A stretch of DNA of 64,000 nucleotides from [Bacillus] enclensis (GTDB lineage Bacteria > Bacillota > Bacilli > Bacillales > Bacillaceae_B): positions 1 to 64,000 of the forward strand of contig NZ_KQ758484.1 in NCBI RefSeq assembly GCF_001456935.1, given 5' to 3'. Below, one piece after another: positions 8,021-59,862 of the stretch. Numbering within the stretch: position 1 is the first letter of the stretch; each line of letters opens with the position of its first letter. The notes under the pieces are model-generated. The model did not search any database and had not been told where the DNA came from. It saw only the letters and a list, made by a program, of their open reading frames with translations. A program made the translations under genes and the position numbers.

Positions 8021-8190
8021 CTTTTATTATCGAATTCTTCAATTTTATTATCGAAATCCAAAAATTTATTATCGAAAAAGAAGATTCTATTATCGAATTC
8101 AGGGCGGCTGCTTCCCGCAATAATCGATTGACCTGGTAATTAATCGAATCACGCTCGTTATTATCGAATTCGTCCAGATAAAAGCGGGGC
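8021..8190 (+). repeat. Phased repeat array, class A copy 1
   Basis: ATTATC cores begin at 8026, 8047, 8068 and 8089 (exact 21-bp steps), then after 31 bp at 8120 (ATAATC), 8140 (TTAATC) and 8160 (ATTATC), with a weak core at 8180, in 20-bp steps. Cores are mostly followed by GAA. The same layout and much of the between-core sequence recur at 14036-14205 and 26520-26690. Non-coding; function unknown. Confidence 0.85.
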
Positions 8191-8220
8191 TGTCCCACCT
8201 TATTATTGGGGATCAGCCCC
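8184..8220. repeat. GGGGCTG/CAGCCCC hairpin
   Basis: A perfect seven-base stem enclosing an AT-rich loop (ACCTTATTATTGGGG) directly after the class A array. Confidence 0.5.
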
Positions 8221-12691: not shown

Positions 12692-12748
12692 TTTATTATC
12701 AAAACCGGGCAGGATATTATCAAAAATCCAATTATATTATCAAATTGC
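12692..12748 (+). repeat. Phased repeat array, class B, truncated to three units
   Basis: ATTATC cores at 12695, 12716 and 12736 (steps 21 and 20). Spacers match units 1-2 of the complete class B arrays (AAAACCGGGCAGG, then AAAAATCCAATTA); units 4-5 are missing. Lies between the VOC gene and the YitT gene. Confidence 0.8.
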
Positions 12749-12763
12749 AAAACTCCCCCAAAA

Positions 12764-13855: not shown

Positions 13856-14035
13856 CTTCCACCACATCTTCGGATTGACTCCAATTTCACTGAAAAACGG
13901 CCATTTCCCTTTTGAAATTTGACTAATTTTAAAAAATTCACGCCCTTGTCTCTATCTGAACCATTACCTGACAGCCAAATTGCCCAATCTTCAATCAATC
14001 CAGCCATTTTAGCTGCCCGCCGAAACCAGCTGACA

Positions 14036-14205
14036 TGTTTATTATCGATTTCTTTCATTTTATTATCGACATTGAAAGATTTATTATCGAAAATGAGGAT
14101 TTTATTATCGAATTGTTATAATCGACTTTGTTCTATTATCGATTTTTCGGTTCTATTAGCGCATTAACCTCCTCAAGATCGAATCGGGGCAGTTATGATC
14201 GAACC
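14036..14205 (+). repeat. Phased repeat array, class A copy 2
   Basis: ATTATC cores at 14041, 14062, 14083 and 14104 (21-bp steps), a 31-bp step to 14135, then 14155 (ATTAGC), 14175 (AAGATC) and 14195 (ATGATC) in 20-bp steps, nearly all followed by GA. Same four-plus-four layout as 8021-8190 and 26520-26690. Located between two convergent genes. Confidence 0.85.
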
Positions 14206-14235
14206 GCCGCATCATTGGTGTCTCACTTGTGGATG

Positions 14236-18771: not shown

Positions 18772-18934
18772 CATAACACCTCGTTAAAAGTTAAGTACAC
18801 TTACTAGTTCGACACAAATCCCTAAATTCCTTTAAATTCCATATTATAGAGTCAGGGGGCATAAATATATATATAAAAAACACTTGCCATCACAAAATTT
18901 CTCAAGTAAACTAATGAAAATAATTCCAATAACA

Positions 18935-19165
18935 ACAAGTGATGATAGGATTCAGTAGTCAATTATCTCCCTGTCGAAGAGATCTGATGGCCGGTGCGAG
19001 TCAGAACACAGATAATGGCGAATTACCCCCTTGAACTTTTCCTGCGAAGATCAGTAGCAGGAAACGGCCGGACCGTTATCCGATTGAGTGGAAGAGAAAT
19101 TCTTCAAGCAAGGGTGGTACCGCGTTAACCACGTCCCTTTATGAGGGGCGTGGTTTTATTTTTGA
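18935..19165 (+). promoter_or_regulatory. T-box leader of tyrS
   Basis: The T-box consensus AGGGTGGTACCGCG is at 19111-19124, directly before a terminator (ACCACGTCCC..GGGGCGTGGT then TTTTATTTTT, about 19129-19162). Upstream lies the long stem I region; a TAC triplet at about 19024-19026 in AATTACCCC is a candidate tyrosine specifier. Uncharged tRNA-Tyr binding would favour the antiterminator and expression of tyrS. Confidence 0.9.
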
Positions 19166-19181: not shown

Positions 19182-20414
19182 ATGAAGGAACTGACGAAAG
19201 AACAGCAGGCAGAATTGGAGAGGCAGATCAGCCTTTATCAGAACGGGGTTGTGGAGACGATTCCCGAGAATGAATTAAGGGATAAAGTGGAGCGTTCCAT
19301 CCAGACCGGGATGCCGCTTAAAATAAAACTCGGCCTCGACCCGACTGCACCGGACGTCCATCTGGGGCATACCGTGGTCCTGAATAAACTGAAGCAATTC
19401 CAGGAAAACGGCCATATCATCCAGCTGATCATCGGAGATTTCACCGGGAAGATCGGCGACCCGACCGGAAAATCGACCGTGCGGAAACAGCTGACCGATG
19501 AAGATGTAAAGGTGAATGCCCAGACATACTTTGAACAGTTCGGCCGTGTGCTCGATATGGAGAAAGTGGAGCTTTTCTATAACTCCGAGTGGCTGACACC
19601 GCTGAACCTCGAAGACGTCATTCGCTTGTCTTCGAGCATCACGGTCGCACGCCTGATCGAGCGGAACGATTTCTCAAACCGAATTGCAACAGGGAAACCG
19701 ATTTCCCTGCATGAATTCTTCTACCCGCTGATGCAGGGCTACGATTCCGTCGCCCTCGAAAGCGACATCGAACTCGGAGGCACCGACCAGCACTTCAACG
19801 TCCTGATGGGCCGGCATCTGCAGGAGCACTACGGAAAAGAAAAACAGGTCGTCATGCTGCTTCCGCTGCTAGAAGGACTGGACGGCGTCGACAAAATGTC
19901 CAAATCCAAACACAACTACATCGGAATCGACGAACCGCCAAACGAGATCTTCGGAAAAACGATGTCGATCCCTGATGAGCTCATCGTCAAATACTTCAAC
20001 CTGGTCACAGACCTGCCGCTGGAAGAAAAACAAAAAATCTCGGCCGGCTTGGCAGACGAGACCCTCCATCCAAGGGACGCCAAAGTCCGCCTGGCCCGCA
20101 CCATCGTCTCCATGTTCCACGGAGAAGAAGCAGCCGCTGCTGCGGTCGAACACTTCCAAACCGTCTTCCAAAAAGGAGCCCTGCCAGAGGATATTCCTTC
20201 AGTCGAATGGAAAGGCGCCTCGGAAGTCGCGATCATCGAACTGCTAGTCGGACTTGGCATGCAAAGCTCAAAGAGTGAAGCCAGAAGAATGATCAAAAAC
20301 GGCGGCATTAGGATCGACGGCGAGAAAGTGCTGGATACCGAAATGCTGGTTTCGGTGACGGACGGGATAATCGTGCAGGTTGGGAAGAGGAAGTTTGTGA
20401 GGGTGAAGGTTTGA
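19182..20414 (+). CDS. tyrS: tyrosyl-tRNA synthetase (TyrZ-like)
   Basis: A 410-residue class I synthetase that charges tRNA-Tyr. PDVHLGH is the HIGH motif and KMSKSKHN the KMSKS loop; the C-terminal S4 RNA-binding domain ([22 protein letters not shown]) is complete. [20 protein letters not shown] and [16 protein letters not shown] match the TyrZ branch rather than the B. subtilis TyrS branch, whose motif is CGVDPTADSLHIGH. AAGGAGG precedes the ATG. Controlled by the tyrosine T-box just upstream. TyrZ enzymes in Bacillus discriminate better against D-tyrosine; whether a second TyrS exists elsewhere in this genome cannot be seen. Confidence 0.95.
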
Positions 20415-26047: not shown

Positions 26048-26142
26048 GTATATTATCAAAACCGGGCATGATATTATCAAAAATCCAATTATATTATCAA
26101 AAACAGCCCATTTATTATCAAAAATCAAAATATATTATCAAA
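26048..26142 (+). repeat. Phased repeat array, class B, five units
   Basis: ATTATC cores at 26052, 26073, 26093, 26114 and 26134 (steps 21, 20, 21, 20), each followed by AAA. Spacer order ACCGGGCATGA, AATCCAATTA, ACAGCCCATT, ATCAAAATA matches the other class B copies unit by unit. Confidence 0.85.
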
Positions 26143-26183
26143 TCGATGCAACCGGGCGAAAGTACTGTCACTCTCTCCTTTTT

Positions 26184-26519: not shown

Positions 26520-26690
26520 AGTTATTAGCGATTTCTTCAATTTTATTATCGAAAATCAAAGATTTATTATCGTAAATGAAGATTTTATTATCAAATTAAT
26601 AAAAGCACTTGGAATCTATTATCAATTACCCGAAGCTATTATCGCGGTTCTCCTCTTATTATCGAATTCCCCCACCTATCATCGAACCGG
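26520..26690 (+). repeat. Phased repeat array, class A copy 3
   Basis: Cores at 26524 (ATTAGC), 26545, 26566 and 26587 in 21-bp steps, 31 bp to 26618, then 26638, 26658 and 26678 (ATCATC) in 20-bp steps. Spacers such as GATTTCTTCAATTTT and AAAATCAAAGATTT also appear at the same positions of the 14036 copy. It ends 12 bases from the stop of the TetR gene. Confidence 0.85.
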
Positions 26691-26701
26691 CAAGATCTAA
26701 C

Positions 26702-30022: not shown

Positions 30023-30120
30023 ACTTATTATCAAAAACGACCAATTTATTATCAAAAATCCAAATATATTATCAAAAACGGATGATATATTATCAAAAAT
30101 CCGATTTTATTATCAAAACC
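30023..30120 (+). repeat. Phased repeat array, class B, five units
   Basis: Cores at 30027, 30048, 30068, 30089 and 30109 (21, 20, 21, 20), each followed by AAAA. After it, up to 30287, come two copies of CTATCAACCAACCGG (about 30202 and 30239), with no gene. Confidence 0.85.
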
Positions 30121-30287
30121 GCATTTCACCGAATCGCGGACCATCAATCAGCCTCATCATCGGACCGCCCAATCAACCATTCGGCGCGAATGCCCCCCGT
30201 TCTATCAACCAACCGGAGTGAAGGAACCCGCGCCGTCCTATCAACCAACCGGCCCGATCCGGCTGCCCCCACACTGCAGACCAAGAC

Positions 30288-33587: not shown

Positions 33588-33685
33588 CTTATTATCAAAA
33601 ACGGACCACTTATTATCAAAAATCCAAATATATTATCGAAACGACACTTTTATTATCAAAAAATCAATTATATTATCAAATCCCC
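33588..33685 (+). repeat. Phased repeat array, class B, five units
   Basis: Cores at 33591, 33612, 33632, 33652 and 33672 (21, 20, 20, 20); unit 3 has TATCGAA instead of TATCAAA, the class A form. It ends about 28 bases from the stop of the DUF1232 gene. Confidence 0.8.
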
Positions 33686-36823: not shown

Positions 36824-36920
36824 ATATATTATCAGAACCGGATACTTTATTATCAAAAATCCAATTATATTATCAAAAACGACCCTTTTATTATCAAAAA
36901 AAGAAATATATTATCAAAAC
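36824..36920 (+). repeat. Phased repeat array, class B, five units
   Basis: Cores at 36828, 36849, 36869, 36890 and 36910 (21, 20, 21, 20). Spacers GAACCGGATACTT, AATCCAATTA, ACGACCCTTTT, AAAGAAATA agree with the other copies. Confidence 0.85.
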
Positions 36921-36961
36921 CACATTCCAGCCCTTCCCCAAGCCGGGATGCAGCCTAGATC

Positions 36962-41408: not shown

Positions 41409-41504
41409 GTTTATTATCAAAACCGGACACTTTATTATCAAAAATCCAATTATATTATCAAAAACGGCTTTTTATTATCAAAAATAGAAATATATTATCA
41501 AATC
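41409..41504 (+). repeat. Phased repeat array, class B, five units
   Basis: Cores at 41413, 41434, 41454, 41474 and 41494 (21, 20, 20, 20). Spacers ACCGGACACTT, AATCCAATTA, ACGGCTTTTT and ATAGAAATA are nearly the same as in the 36824 copy. Confidence 0.85.
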
Positions 41505-41644
41505 CATGAAATCAGTGAACTGCCGATGCAGACCTACACGCCCCTCACCCCTCTCTTCTTTTCCACCCCCAACCCTTTTCACTGAAAACGAATATCCCCC
41601 TCTCTTTCCGCTCATAATAAAACCCTAAAAGGAGGGTGGATAAC

Positions 41645-41942: not shown

Positions 41943-42090
41943 TTAGAATCATTCTAAGTGGCTCATAAAATGAAAAAGTGGCTCGTATTTTTGAAATCTG
42001 GCCTGTATTTTTCGAAAGTGGCTCGTAAATTTTAAATGTGGCTCGTATTTTCAAAAAAGTGTCCCGTAAATCTGAAAAGTGGCTCGAAAA
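41943..42090 (-). repeat. Phased repeat array, class C, seven units
   Basis: Units GTGGCTCGTA(A/T) start at 41958, 41978, 41998, 42018, 42038, 42059 and 42079 (20-bp steps, one of 21). Read on the minus strand they are TACGAGCCAC with A/T flanks, and the array ends in the palindrome TTAGAATGATTCTAA. Class D arrays at 49619 and 59731 have the same cap and TATGATCC/TACGATCC cores. Confidence 0.8.
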
Positions 42091-42187
42091 CCACCGCAAG
42101 CCTCAATTTCTCTATTCCACCGGCAGCGTATCCACCACACTCTTCACCTGTAAAAGATCAATTTGTCTATTTTAATTAAAATCAAAC

Positions 42188-49618: not shown

Positions 49619-49753
49619 GCTTTATATGATCCAAAATAAAGATTTATGATCCATTCGACAAAAAATACGTGCCGTTTTCAGGATTTATGATCCTAATTCG
49701 AAAAATACGATCCTAAATCGAAATATATGATCTCATGATAATCATTCTAAACT
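49619..49753 (+). repeat. Phased repeat array, class D copy 1
   Basis: GATCC cores (TATGATCC or TACGATCC) at 49628, 49648, a degenerate TACGTGCC at 49668, then 49689, 49709 and 49729 (steps 20, 20, 21, 20, 20). It ends with GATAATCATTCTAA, the cap motif. The third, degenerate unit is degenerate in copy 2 as well. Confidence 0.8.
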
Positions 49754-57585: not shown

Positions 57586-57649
57586 TACCATTTTATCAAT
57601 CATTGATCATGCTCGCTGCCGGTGGCCCCCATAACGGCTAAAAACCGGT

Positions 57650-57760
57650 TTTGATAATATATTGGGATTTTCGGTTTGATAATAAAAGAGTTGTTTTTGA
57701 TAATATAATTGGATTTTTGATAATATCCTGCCCGTTTTTGATAATATATCAATCCGCAGA
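57650..57760 (-). repeat. Phased repeat array, class B, five units, inverted
   Basis: GATAAT (inverse core) at 57653, 57678, 57699, 57719 and 57740: steps 25, 21, 20, 21. Read on the minus strand the spacer order is the same as in the plus-strand copies (ACGGGCAGGA, AATCCAATTA, ACAACTCTTT..). One unit is lengthened by four to five bases. The only class B copy in inverted orientation. Confidence 0.85.
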
Positions 57761-59512: not shown

Positions 59513-59730
59513 GAGTTTCCCTCCTTTTTTGTTTAAGATTCTCTTTTATCTTTTATTATAAGATGGTTGGGAATTTACAGCAAGGGGAAATTGGAGCGCG
59601 GGGCACTGGTTATAGCACCGTTTTGCCCAAATAGAGTTGAAAAGTTTGTTATTTTGACTGGATCCGGTTAAGTTGAACCAATTCTTCTGTATAAATGACT
59701 GTCTGTATAATGGAAATTTGGGTGCCGTCA

Positions 59731-59862
59731 GCATTTATGATCCATTTTCAGGATTTATGATCCATTCGACAAAAAATACGCGCCTCAATCGAAATTTATA
59801 ATCCATTTCAGAAAAATATGATCCTGATTCGAAATATATGATCCTTTGAGAATCATTCTAAT
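59731..59862 (+). repeat. Phased repeat array, class D copy 2
   Basis: Cores at 59739, 59759, degenerate TACGCGCC at 59779, then 59800, 59820 and 59840 (20, 20, 21, 20, 20), capped by GAGAATCATTCTAA. It matches copy 1 (49619-49753) unit by unit, including GATCCATTCGACAAAAAATA. Confidence 0.85.

Follow-up and report, generated by a model that had tools for sequence, protein, structure and literature searches.

Helically phased arrays of short direct repeats at gene ends and behind rRNA operons in a Bacillaceae genome

Rows of short, evenly spaced boxes recur within the window, i.e. the whole stretch of 64,000 nucleotides analysed, and raise the question of what they are: sites for a protein, templates of a folded RNA, or repeats without a function for their host. 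The window corresponds to bases 1-64000 of contig C3 of a 4.48 Mb genome of 18 contigs, referred to as G000; G020 is its sister genome. The genus sample consisted of the 36 genomes in the collection. Gene positions for neighbour and gap counts were obtained by our own simple gene caller, not by a published one.

Layout and helical phase of the arrays

The initial annotation had described three arrays of one class, class A, with a fixed design of four 21-bp units, a 31-bp hinge and four 20-bp units. The three arrays are present, starting at positions 8021, 14036 and 26520, each with four clear boxes followed by looser ones. All are on the forward strand and in the hinge register: 8021..8200, where four 21-bp boxes are followed by degenerate boxes of about 20 bp, 14036..14206, between convergent genes, and 26520..26692. 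At all three places the clear boxes read TTATTATCGA and are 21 bp apart. The window holds 35 pairs of TATTATCR at 20-21 bp, versus an average of 0.01 over 100 dinucleotide shuffles; in the whole genome, TATTATC pairs separated by 13/14 bp gave 96+44 matches (140), versus 1+0 for the reversed pattern.

The test of the offsets on further copies, set beforehand, made use of 23 class A arrays from G000, taken among the matches listed, their total being at least 23. Boxes at offsets 0, 21, 42 and 63 are present in 23, 22, 21 and 21 of these copies, respectively, as had been claimed (one mismatch allowed; background of 0.04 copies per offset). The second half, placed by the same claim at offsets 94-154, is degenerate even within the window trio: with up to 2 mismatches, all four boxes are found at 26520, the sole window copy with all eight offsets, three at 14036 and two at 8021. 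The hinge is not fixed. A spacing of 30-31 bp is found in only 10 of the 23 copies (the window trio, L009, L012, L014, L015, L016, L021 and L025) and a 21-bp step in 12, while L019 ties between the registers, its mismatch sum leaning to the 21-bp step; registers were measured from the fourth box, and the assignments of 8021, L012 and L015 depend on one good box each. Both registers continue in steps of about 20 bp, and the offset between them is 10 bp, or one helical turn. The further copies, then, keep the first four boxes and the phase, and many of them lack the hinge; the layout of four boxes, hinge and four boxes is real, it is one of two, and the class A design is broader and less fixed than first stated.

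A box with T-rich and A-rich parts, similar to TTTTnnTnAAAAnC, is found upstream of class A arrays, with a motif score of 67.4 in 20 sequences, against at most 52.6 in 10 dinucleotide shuffles. Its position wanders between about -30 and -208, as exemplified in the window by 13884-13900. By eye, the same motif seems to recur about every 50 bp in the rRNA-linked class A copies.

Two additional classes were recognized, class B being represented in the window by seven arrays, versus three for class A. Its core is TATTATCAAAA, in up to five or six boxes, mostly spaced 21/20/21/20. The forward strand carries an array of 3 boxes at 12692..12752 and arrays of 5 boxes at 26049..26146, 30024..30122, 33588..33684, 36825..36922 and 41410..41506; the seventh, also of 5 boxes and with one 25-bp step, is on the reverse strand (57646..57748). 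Class C includes TATGATCC and TACGAGCC boxes of about 20 bp, spaced as in the other classes: TACGAGCC boxes at 41970..42095, on the reverse strand, and, on the forward strand, TATGATCC boxes at 49643..49740 and TATGATCC/TACGCGCC boxes at 59728..59860. By eye, window class C arrays end near a TTCTAA motif (at 41970..42095 and 59728..59860), and on contig C12 (L175) a further array of this type comes after an rRNA-tRNA operon.

The arrays are helically phased. Among 166 pairs of neighbouring exact cores, located at most 70 bp apart in G000 loci, 134 are spaced by 20 (46) or 21 bp (88); the others are found at 22 (2), 30-31 (4), 39-42 (18) and 60 bp (2), the 39-42 and 60 bp spacings being partly skipped boxes and not independent, and at the off-phase distances of 14, 18, 24 (2) and 25 bp (2). 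AA/TT steps peak at 10.25 bp in both class A and class B, with a power at this period of 0.68 for class A, versus 0.32 +/- 0.06 in shuffled sequences, and of 1.64 for class B, versus 0.28 +/- 0.05 in dinucleotide shuffles. The initial suggestion that proteins are bound in two groups along one helix face agrees, as far as the face is concerned, with the 20-21-bp spacing, the registers one turn apart, the 10.25-bp AA/TT period and the conservation of the boxes; the protein is a putative one.

The same steps are found with other cores, namely TATTATCGAC, TATTTTCAAA and GACGCATAAA in other species of the genus, TATTATCTA, mostly in 21-bp steps, in G148 (another family of the same order) and TATTATCGAA in Metabacillus mangrovi and a Fictibacillus. 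Within the genus the distribution is patchy: TATTATC pairs range between 0 and 155 per genome, at least 5 being found in 16 of the 36 genomes, and 19 of the 36 have few of either tested core. G136 is another genome rich in pairs. A 20-bp array with core GTACACATGTACAC was observed in G002 (L106, 5535-5606), a genome without TATTATC pairs. A contig scan found class A-like pattern matches in Rossellomorea aquimaris, R. marisflavi and 'Bacillus' haikouensis, among others, so that G000 probably belongs to Rossellomorea. Its matches in Cyanobacteria (L053, L058) and Shapirobacteria (L047) look like exact tandem repeats and were set aside; five viral-contig matches look, by eye, like simple or coding repeats.

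Location at gene ends and behind rRNA operons

None of the 54 listed arrays of G000 falls within a well-scored gene, and the ORF calls which three of them overlap are weak (scores 8 to 10). When gaps of at least 150 bp in the fetched loci were sorted by the direction of the flanking genes, class A arrays were found in 7 of the 20 convergent gaps, in 11 of the 83 tandem ones and in 1 of the 32 divergent ones, and class B arrays in 5 convergent, 23 tandem and 1 divergent of the same gaps; since the loci were chosen for their arrays, only the contrast between gap types counts. Avoidance of divergent gaps was also found in seven other genomes, where 2 of 57 arrays with two neighbours, versus 51 of 177 array-free gaps, are divergent (p = 2e-5); of the 69 arrays of this set, 4 lie inside called genes and 8 at locus edges, and not all are independent, because some are common to sister genomes. 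Arrays stand in either orientation to the neighbouring gene. Intrinsic terminators, as detected by a strict finder, are not enriched beside them (18 of 61, versus 18 of 66 at other gene ends).

Arrays are also placed directly behind rRNA operons. All seven 5S genes of G000 were located, and five of the seven operons are followed by an array: at four of them class A starts about 270 bp past the 5S end, and at the fifth a class C array comes after the 5S gene and two tRNAs. The other two 5S genes are followed by long tRNA clusters, with no TATTATC pair in their 6-kb stretches. In G020, three rRNA ends, fetched because of their arrays, carry class B about 140 bp past the 5S gene. Compared genome by genome and not operon by operon, the two sisters thus differ in the class found at rRNA ends, A in G000 and B in G020. 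In G011 an GACGCATAAA array is found within 700 bp downstream of 5 of the 9 5S genes, against an expectation of 0.03 over all DNA, or of 0.23 if only an assumed 12% of intergenic DNA is counted; a sixth 5S gene has a TATTTTC array behind its tRNA cluster, which brings the number to at least 6 of 9. Arrays of the GACGCAATAA/GACGCATAA type are found behind several rRNA operons of G032 and G016. In M. mangrovi, three 5S genes are followed by arrays, which stand in the opposite orientation, and a further array is located near a tRNA cluster; R. aquimaris has two rRNA loci with two arrays each. At the latter loci (L048, L052), tandem repeats of about 343 bp were seen behind the 5S gene, with one array per repeat.

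Among the 5S ends viewed, three in G016, one in G011 and all those in G025 are without an array, and only one in G002 has it. Outside the genus, in other families of the order, none of 26 regions downstream of 5S genes, from 25 genomes (one locus per genome, two for G047), contains a tandem repeat of 19-22 or 39-43 bp; in ten of these regions a tRNA cluster extends to within 300 bp of the edge of the view. Orientation relative to the rRNA operon varies between species. As the rRNA-end copies of one genome are related to each other, the independent evidence is provided by the different cores found at this place in different species.

A candidate binding protein was sought among shared neighbours, and none was found. 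Six families recur near arrays in at least three lineages; besides neighbours of one common rRNA locus, they are short-chain dehydrogenases, a PAS histidine kinase and a HAD hydrolase, and four of the six were put to Pfam. The recurrent neighbours that could be named, the naming covering part of the neighbour genes, are metabolic or signalling proteins. Y1_Tnp is found in all 36 genomes, and its counts, which pool RAYT subtypes, do not correlate with those of array pairs (Spearman 0.10, p = 0.54). A single array of each class (A, B and C) was compared with 72,556 plasmids, without a match, and the class A array, the only one compared with phages (50,697), weakly matched only two records, of one E. 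coli phage, with 80% identity over about 50 bp. A phage or plasmid origin was set aside on these grounds, and no known mobile element or gene of which the arrays could be part was recognized in the searches made.

Conservation and turnover between genomes

The cores are constrained. Between matching arrays of G000 and G020, core columns differ in 25 of 786 cells (3%) and neighbouring unit columns in 204 of 1539 (13%), in segments that are 75-99% identical and with degenerate boxes included in the counts. The reverse comparison gave 23 of 815 for the core and 207 of 1570 for the neighbouring columns, and the species pair G032-G016 gave 13 of 321 and 92 of 632. The divergence profile resembles a footprint, having its minimum over the seven core bases and higher values to either side. 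Gene conversion among copies could also be a source of the low core divergence.

Boxes are lost or gained in whole units. At window position 26051, five boxes in G000 stand against just one at the corresponding site of G020, and the same five-to-one difference is seen at L042; the class B array at 12692..12752 has three boxes, versus five at the aligned place in G020, and the class C array at 49643..49740 has, near 49690, one 20-bp unit more than its G020 counterpart. Three loci compared with G020 gave one replacement, one contraction to one box and one absent segment, a further contraction being found at a fourth locus. The replacement concerns the class A array at L014, in place of which G020 carries other sequence, so that the difference is not an insertion; the array at 41410..41506 stands on a 767-bp segment absent from G020. 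No clean empty site was found at the few loci compared with G020.

Recombination between arrays is suggested by the class B array at 36825..36922, which near 36827 joins the left flank of one G020 array to the right flank of another, the two flanking a 1.3-kb segment in G020 (L085, 13281-14760). By eye, this segment contains a secreted-metalloprotease-like reading frame, a gene absent from the window; arrays may therefore mediate gene loss. In two class B arrays, at L039 (2868-2940) and L045 (2719-2810), the sequence is cut at the same ATATATTA position and continues into the same AAAGTTAGTCTAAAAA, perhaps an insertion element targeting arrays. By eye, class B arrays at L030-L033, L042 and L045 have an GGGGTATTA-like sequence upstream and, in some cases, TAATACC downstream, as an inverted pair.

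Possible roles of the arrays

Our overall reading, put forward with reserve, is that helically phased arrays are bound by a predicted DNA-binding protein and form a boundary at transcription-unit ends. Each array would be a row of sites for one putative sequence-specific protein; that the arrays are protein-bound is probable. With steps of 20-21 bp, on average about 20.5 bp, or two turns of 10.25 bp, the sites would lie on one face of the helix, and AA/TT tracts once per turn should favour bending. Several copies of the protein, presumably cooperating, would assemble into a stable, curved nucleoprotein complex past the ends of transcription units, and this complex would stop or insulate read-through polymerase, and/or hold supercoils behind very active operons. 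A boundary role is the one that we favour because arrays stand at the 3' ends of genes and immediately follow many rRNA operons and some tRNA operons; it fits the location, and is possible rather than assured. The cores TATTATC, TATGATCC, TATTTTC and GACGCATAAA, found at such places, would each presumably have their own protein variant. We regard as rather doubtful the wider proposal that array families are each read by their own fast-evolving protein, the core being replaced between species while the two-turn architecture and the place are kept, as an undescribed bacterial counterpart of rDNA terminator arrays. Points against a protein boundary are the lack of a recognized protein, the patchy distribution, the rRNA ends without arrays, the varying orientation and the absence of terminator enrichment.

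Arrays could instead be selfish or nonautonomous repeats, similar to REPs, MITEs or satellites, which have no function for the host, multiply through a transposase or through recombination and persist at gene ends because they are tolerated there. The wide range of counts within one genus, the avoidance of promoter gaps, the contractions from five units to one at two loci, the presence or absence of arrays between sister genomes, the recombinant window array standing for a G020 segment bounded by two arrays and, by eye, the inverted GGGGTATTA/TAATACC flanks of some class B copies would all be expected of such elements. Core columns, however, diverge about four times less than their neighbours, clean empty sites are missing, the sole class A absence looked at being a replacement, Y1 transposase counts are unlinked to arrays across the 36 genomes, and rRNA ends of different species carry different cores; this explanation seems unlikely to us. 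A structured RNA at transcript 3' ends, to which the folded-RNA alternative of the initial annotation would lead, agrees with the location next to gene 3' ends. That reading was rejected because, on either strand, the mean z-scores for folding of 23 class A arrays and 22 class B arrays lie between 0.0 and 0.4 and Rfam, at gathering scores, gives no match in the window arrays; considering also that arrays take either orientation to the neighbouring gene, we find it scarcely credible.

A further alternative is that a general nucleoid protein or gyrase uses the arrays as curved, phased sites, which settle supercoiling behind active operons; the arrays would then be the Gram-positive equivalent of BIME-2 or of the nucleation sites of H-NS/Rok. 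The 10.25-bp AA/TT phasing agrees with it, and so do the helically phased high-affinity H-NS sites at proV (accessible text of PMC5418058). According to the accessible text of PMC6379681, gyrase cleavage sites of E. coli gather downstream of rRNA operons and in BIME-2, which makes the place of the arrays plausible for supercoiling control; the same text reports that the attraction behind operons is not hard-wired in sequence. The core, moreover, changes between species of one genus. The near-invariant 7-bp core of the main units is more specific than would be expected for gyrase or Rok. We consider this alternative improbable. Overlapping antisense promoters might also be read in the unit pairs, where TTGATA and GATAAT are found 16-17 bp apart on the opposite strand; in a promoter scan several array units reach 9-10 of 12, which ranks with the top scores over 9.5 kb. 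By eye, arrays with the cores TATGATCC, TACGAGCC and GACGCATAAA have the same layout but no such hexamers, and divergent promoter gaps are avoided, so that little credit can be given to promoters.

The nearest known systems include eukaryotic rDNA terminator arrays (Sal box/TTF-I, Reb1), a likeness in the way of working, which are rows of short protein sites past rRNA genes. The bacterial arrays resemble these terminator or roadblock arrays in standing just past rRNA operons (among the loci viewed, none in G025 and one in G002), and differ from them in the domain of life and the polymerase, in being found also at many protein-coding gene ends, and in that the bound protein is here a predicted one. 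In iterons of plasmids and phages, direct repeats follow each other at about 20-22 bp, on a single side of the helix, and are read by one protein; the arrays share with them this spacing and the single face, whereas they are dispersed on the chromosome and, for the one array of each class that was compared, have no plasmid match. The STAR core of staphylococci is G+C-rich, and its consensus has 0 matches in the window with one mismatch allowed. STAR elements are interspersed intergenic direct repeats which expand and contract, with locations differing between species; the arrays resemble them in these respects, whereas fixed two-turn phasing and rRNA-end placement are both unmentioned for STAR in the accessible text (PMC3532100). 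REP/BIME are extragenic repeats, multi-copy, mosaic and specific to a species, for which a part in chromosome organisation and in termination has been proposed (accessible text of PMC2817692). The arrays share with them the many copies per genome, the mosaicism, the species specificity and the extragenic location, but their boxes are direct and helically phased, with neither palindromes nor, on either strand, a hairpin signal; unlike REP/BIME with RAYT, they show no correlation with Y1 transposases and have several cores in one layout. Rok is found on extended A+T-rich, horizontally acquired regions (accessible text of PMC2978689). Arrays are A+T-rich like H-NS/Rok nucleation sites, those of H-NS at proV being also helically phased, but they surpass these sites by far in regularity, have a fixed 7-bp core and are located at gene ends. 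Within the accessible text of open-access papers, which leaves most subscription papers outside the scope, no description of such arrays was found.

A protein reading the arrays, if there is one, would represent a new architectural or boundary factor of Bacillaceae, acting where transcription load peaks. The different cores in the same layout of related species represent a natural experiment on protein-site co-evolution. Whether the ends of rRNA operons require a protein barrier could then also be tested directly in bacteria. Even for selfish elements, phase locking at 10.25 bp together with conserved cores would be a constraint seldom expected of repeats.

With respect to replication, the leading strand of G011 carries GACGCATAAA in 15 of 19 arrays and TATTATC in 4 of 18, the terminus being set at one dif-like match with 2 mismatches and the start of the contig being taken as the origin; the other four genomes searched gave no dif-like match. 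This polarity was not taken to be general, since G032, G016 and G000 show mixed runs. Elsewhere in the window, a T-box leader was observed at 18933-19141, ahead of the gene at 19182.
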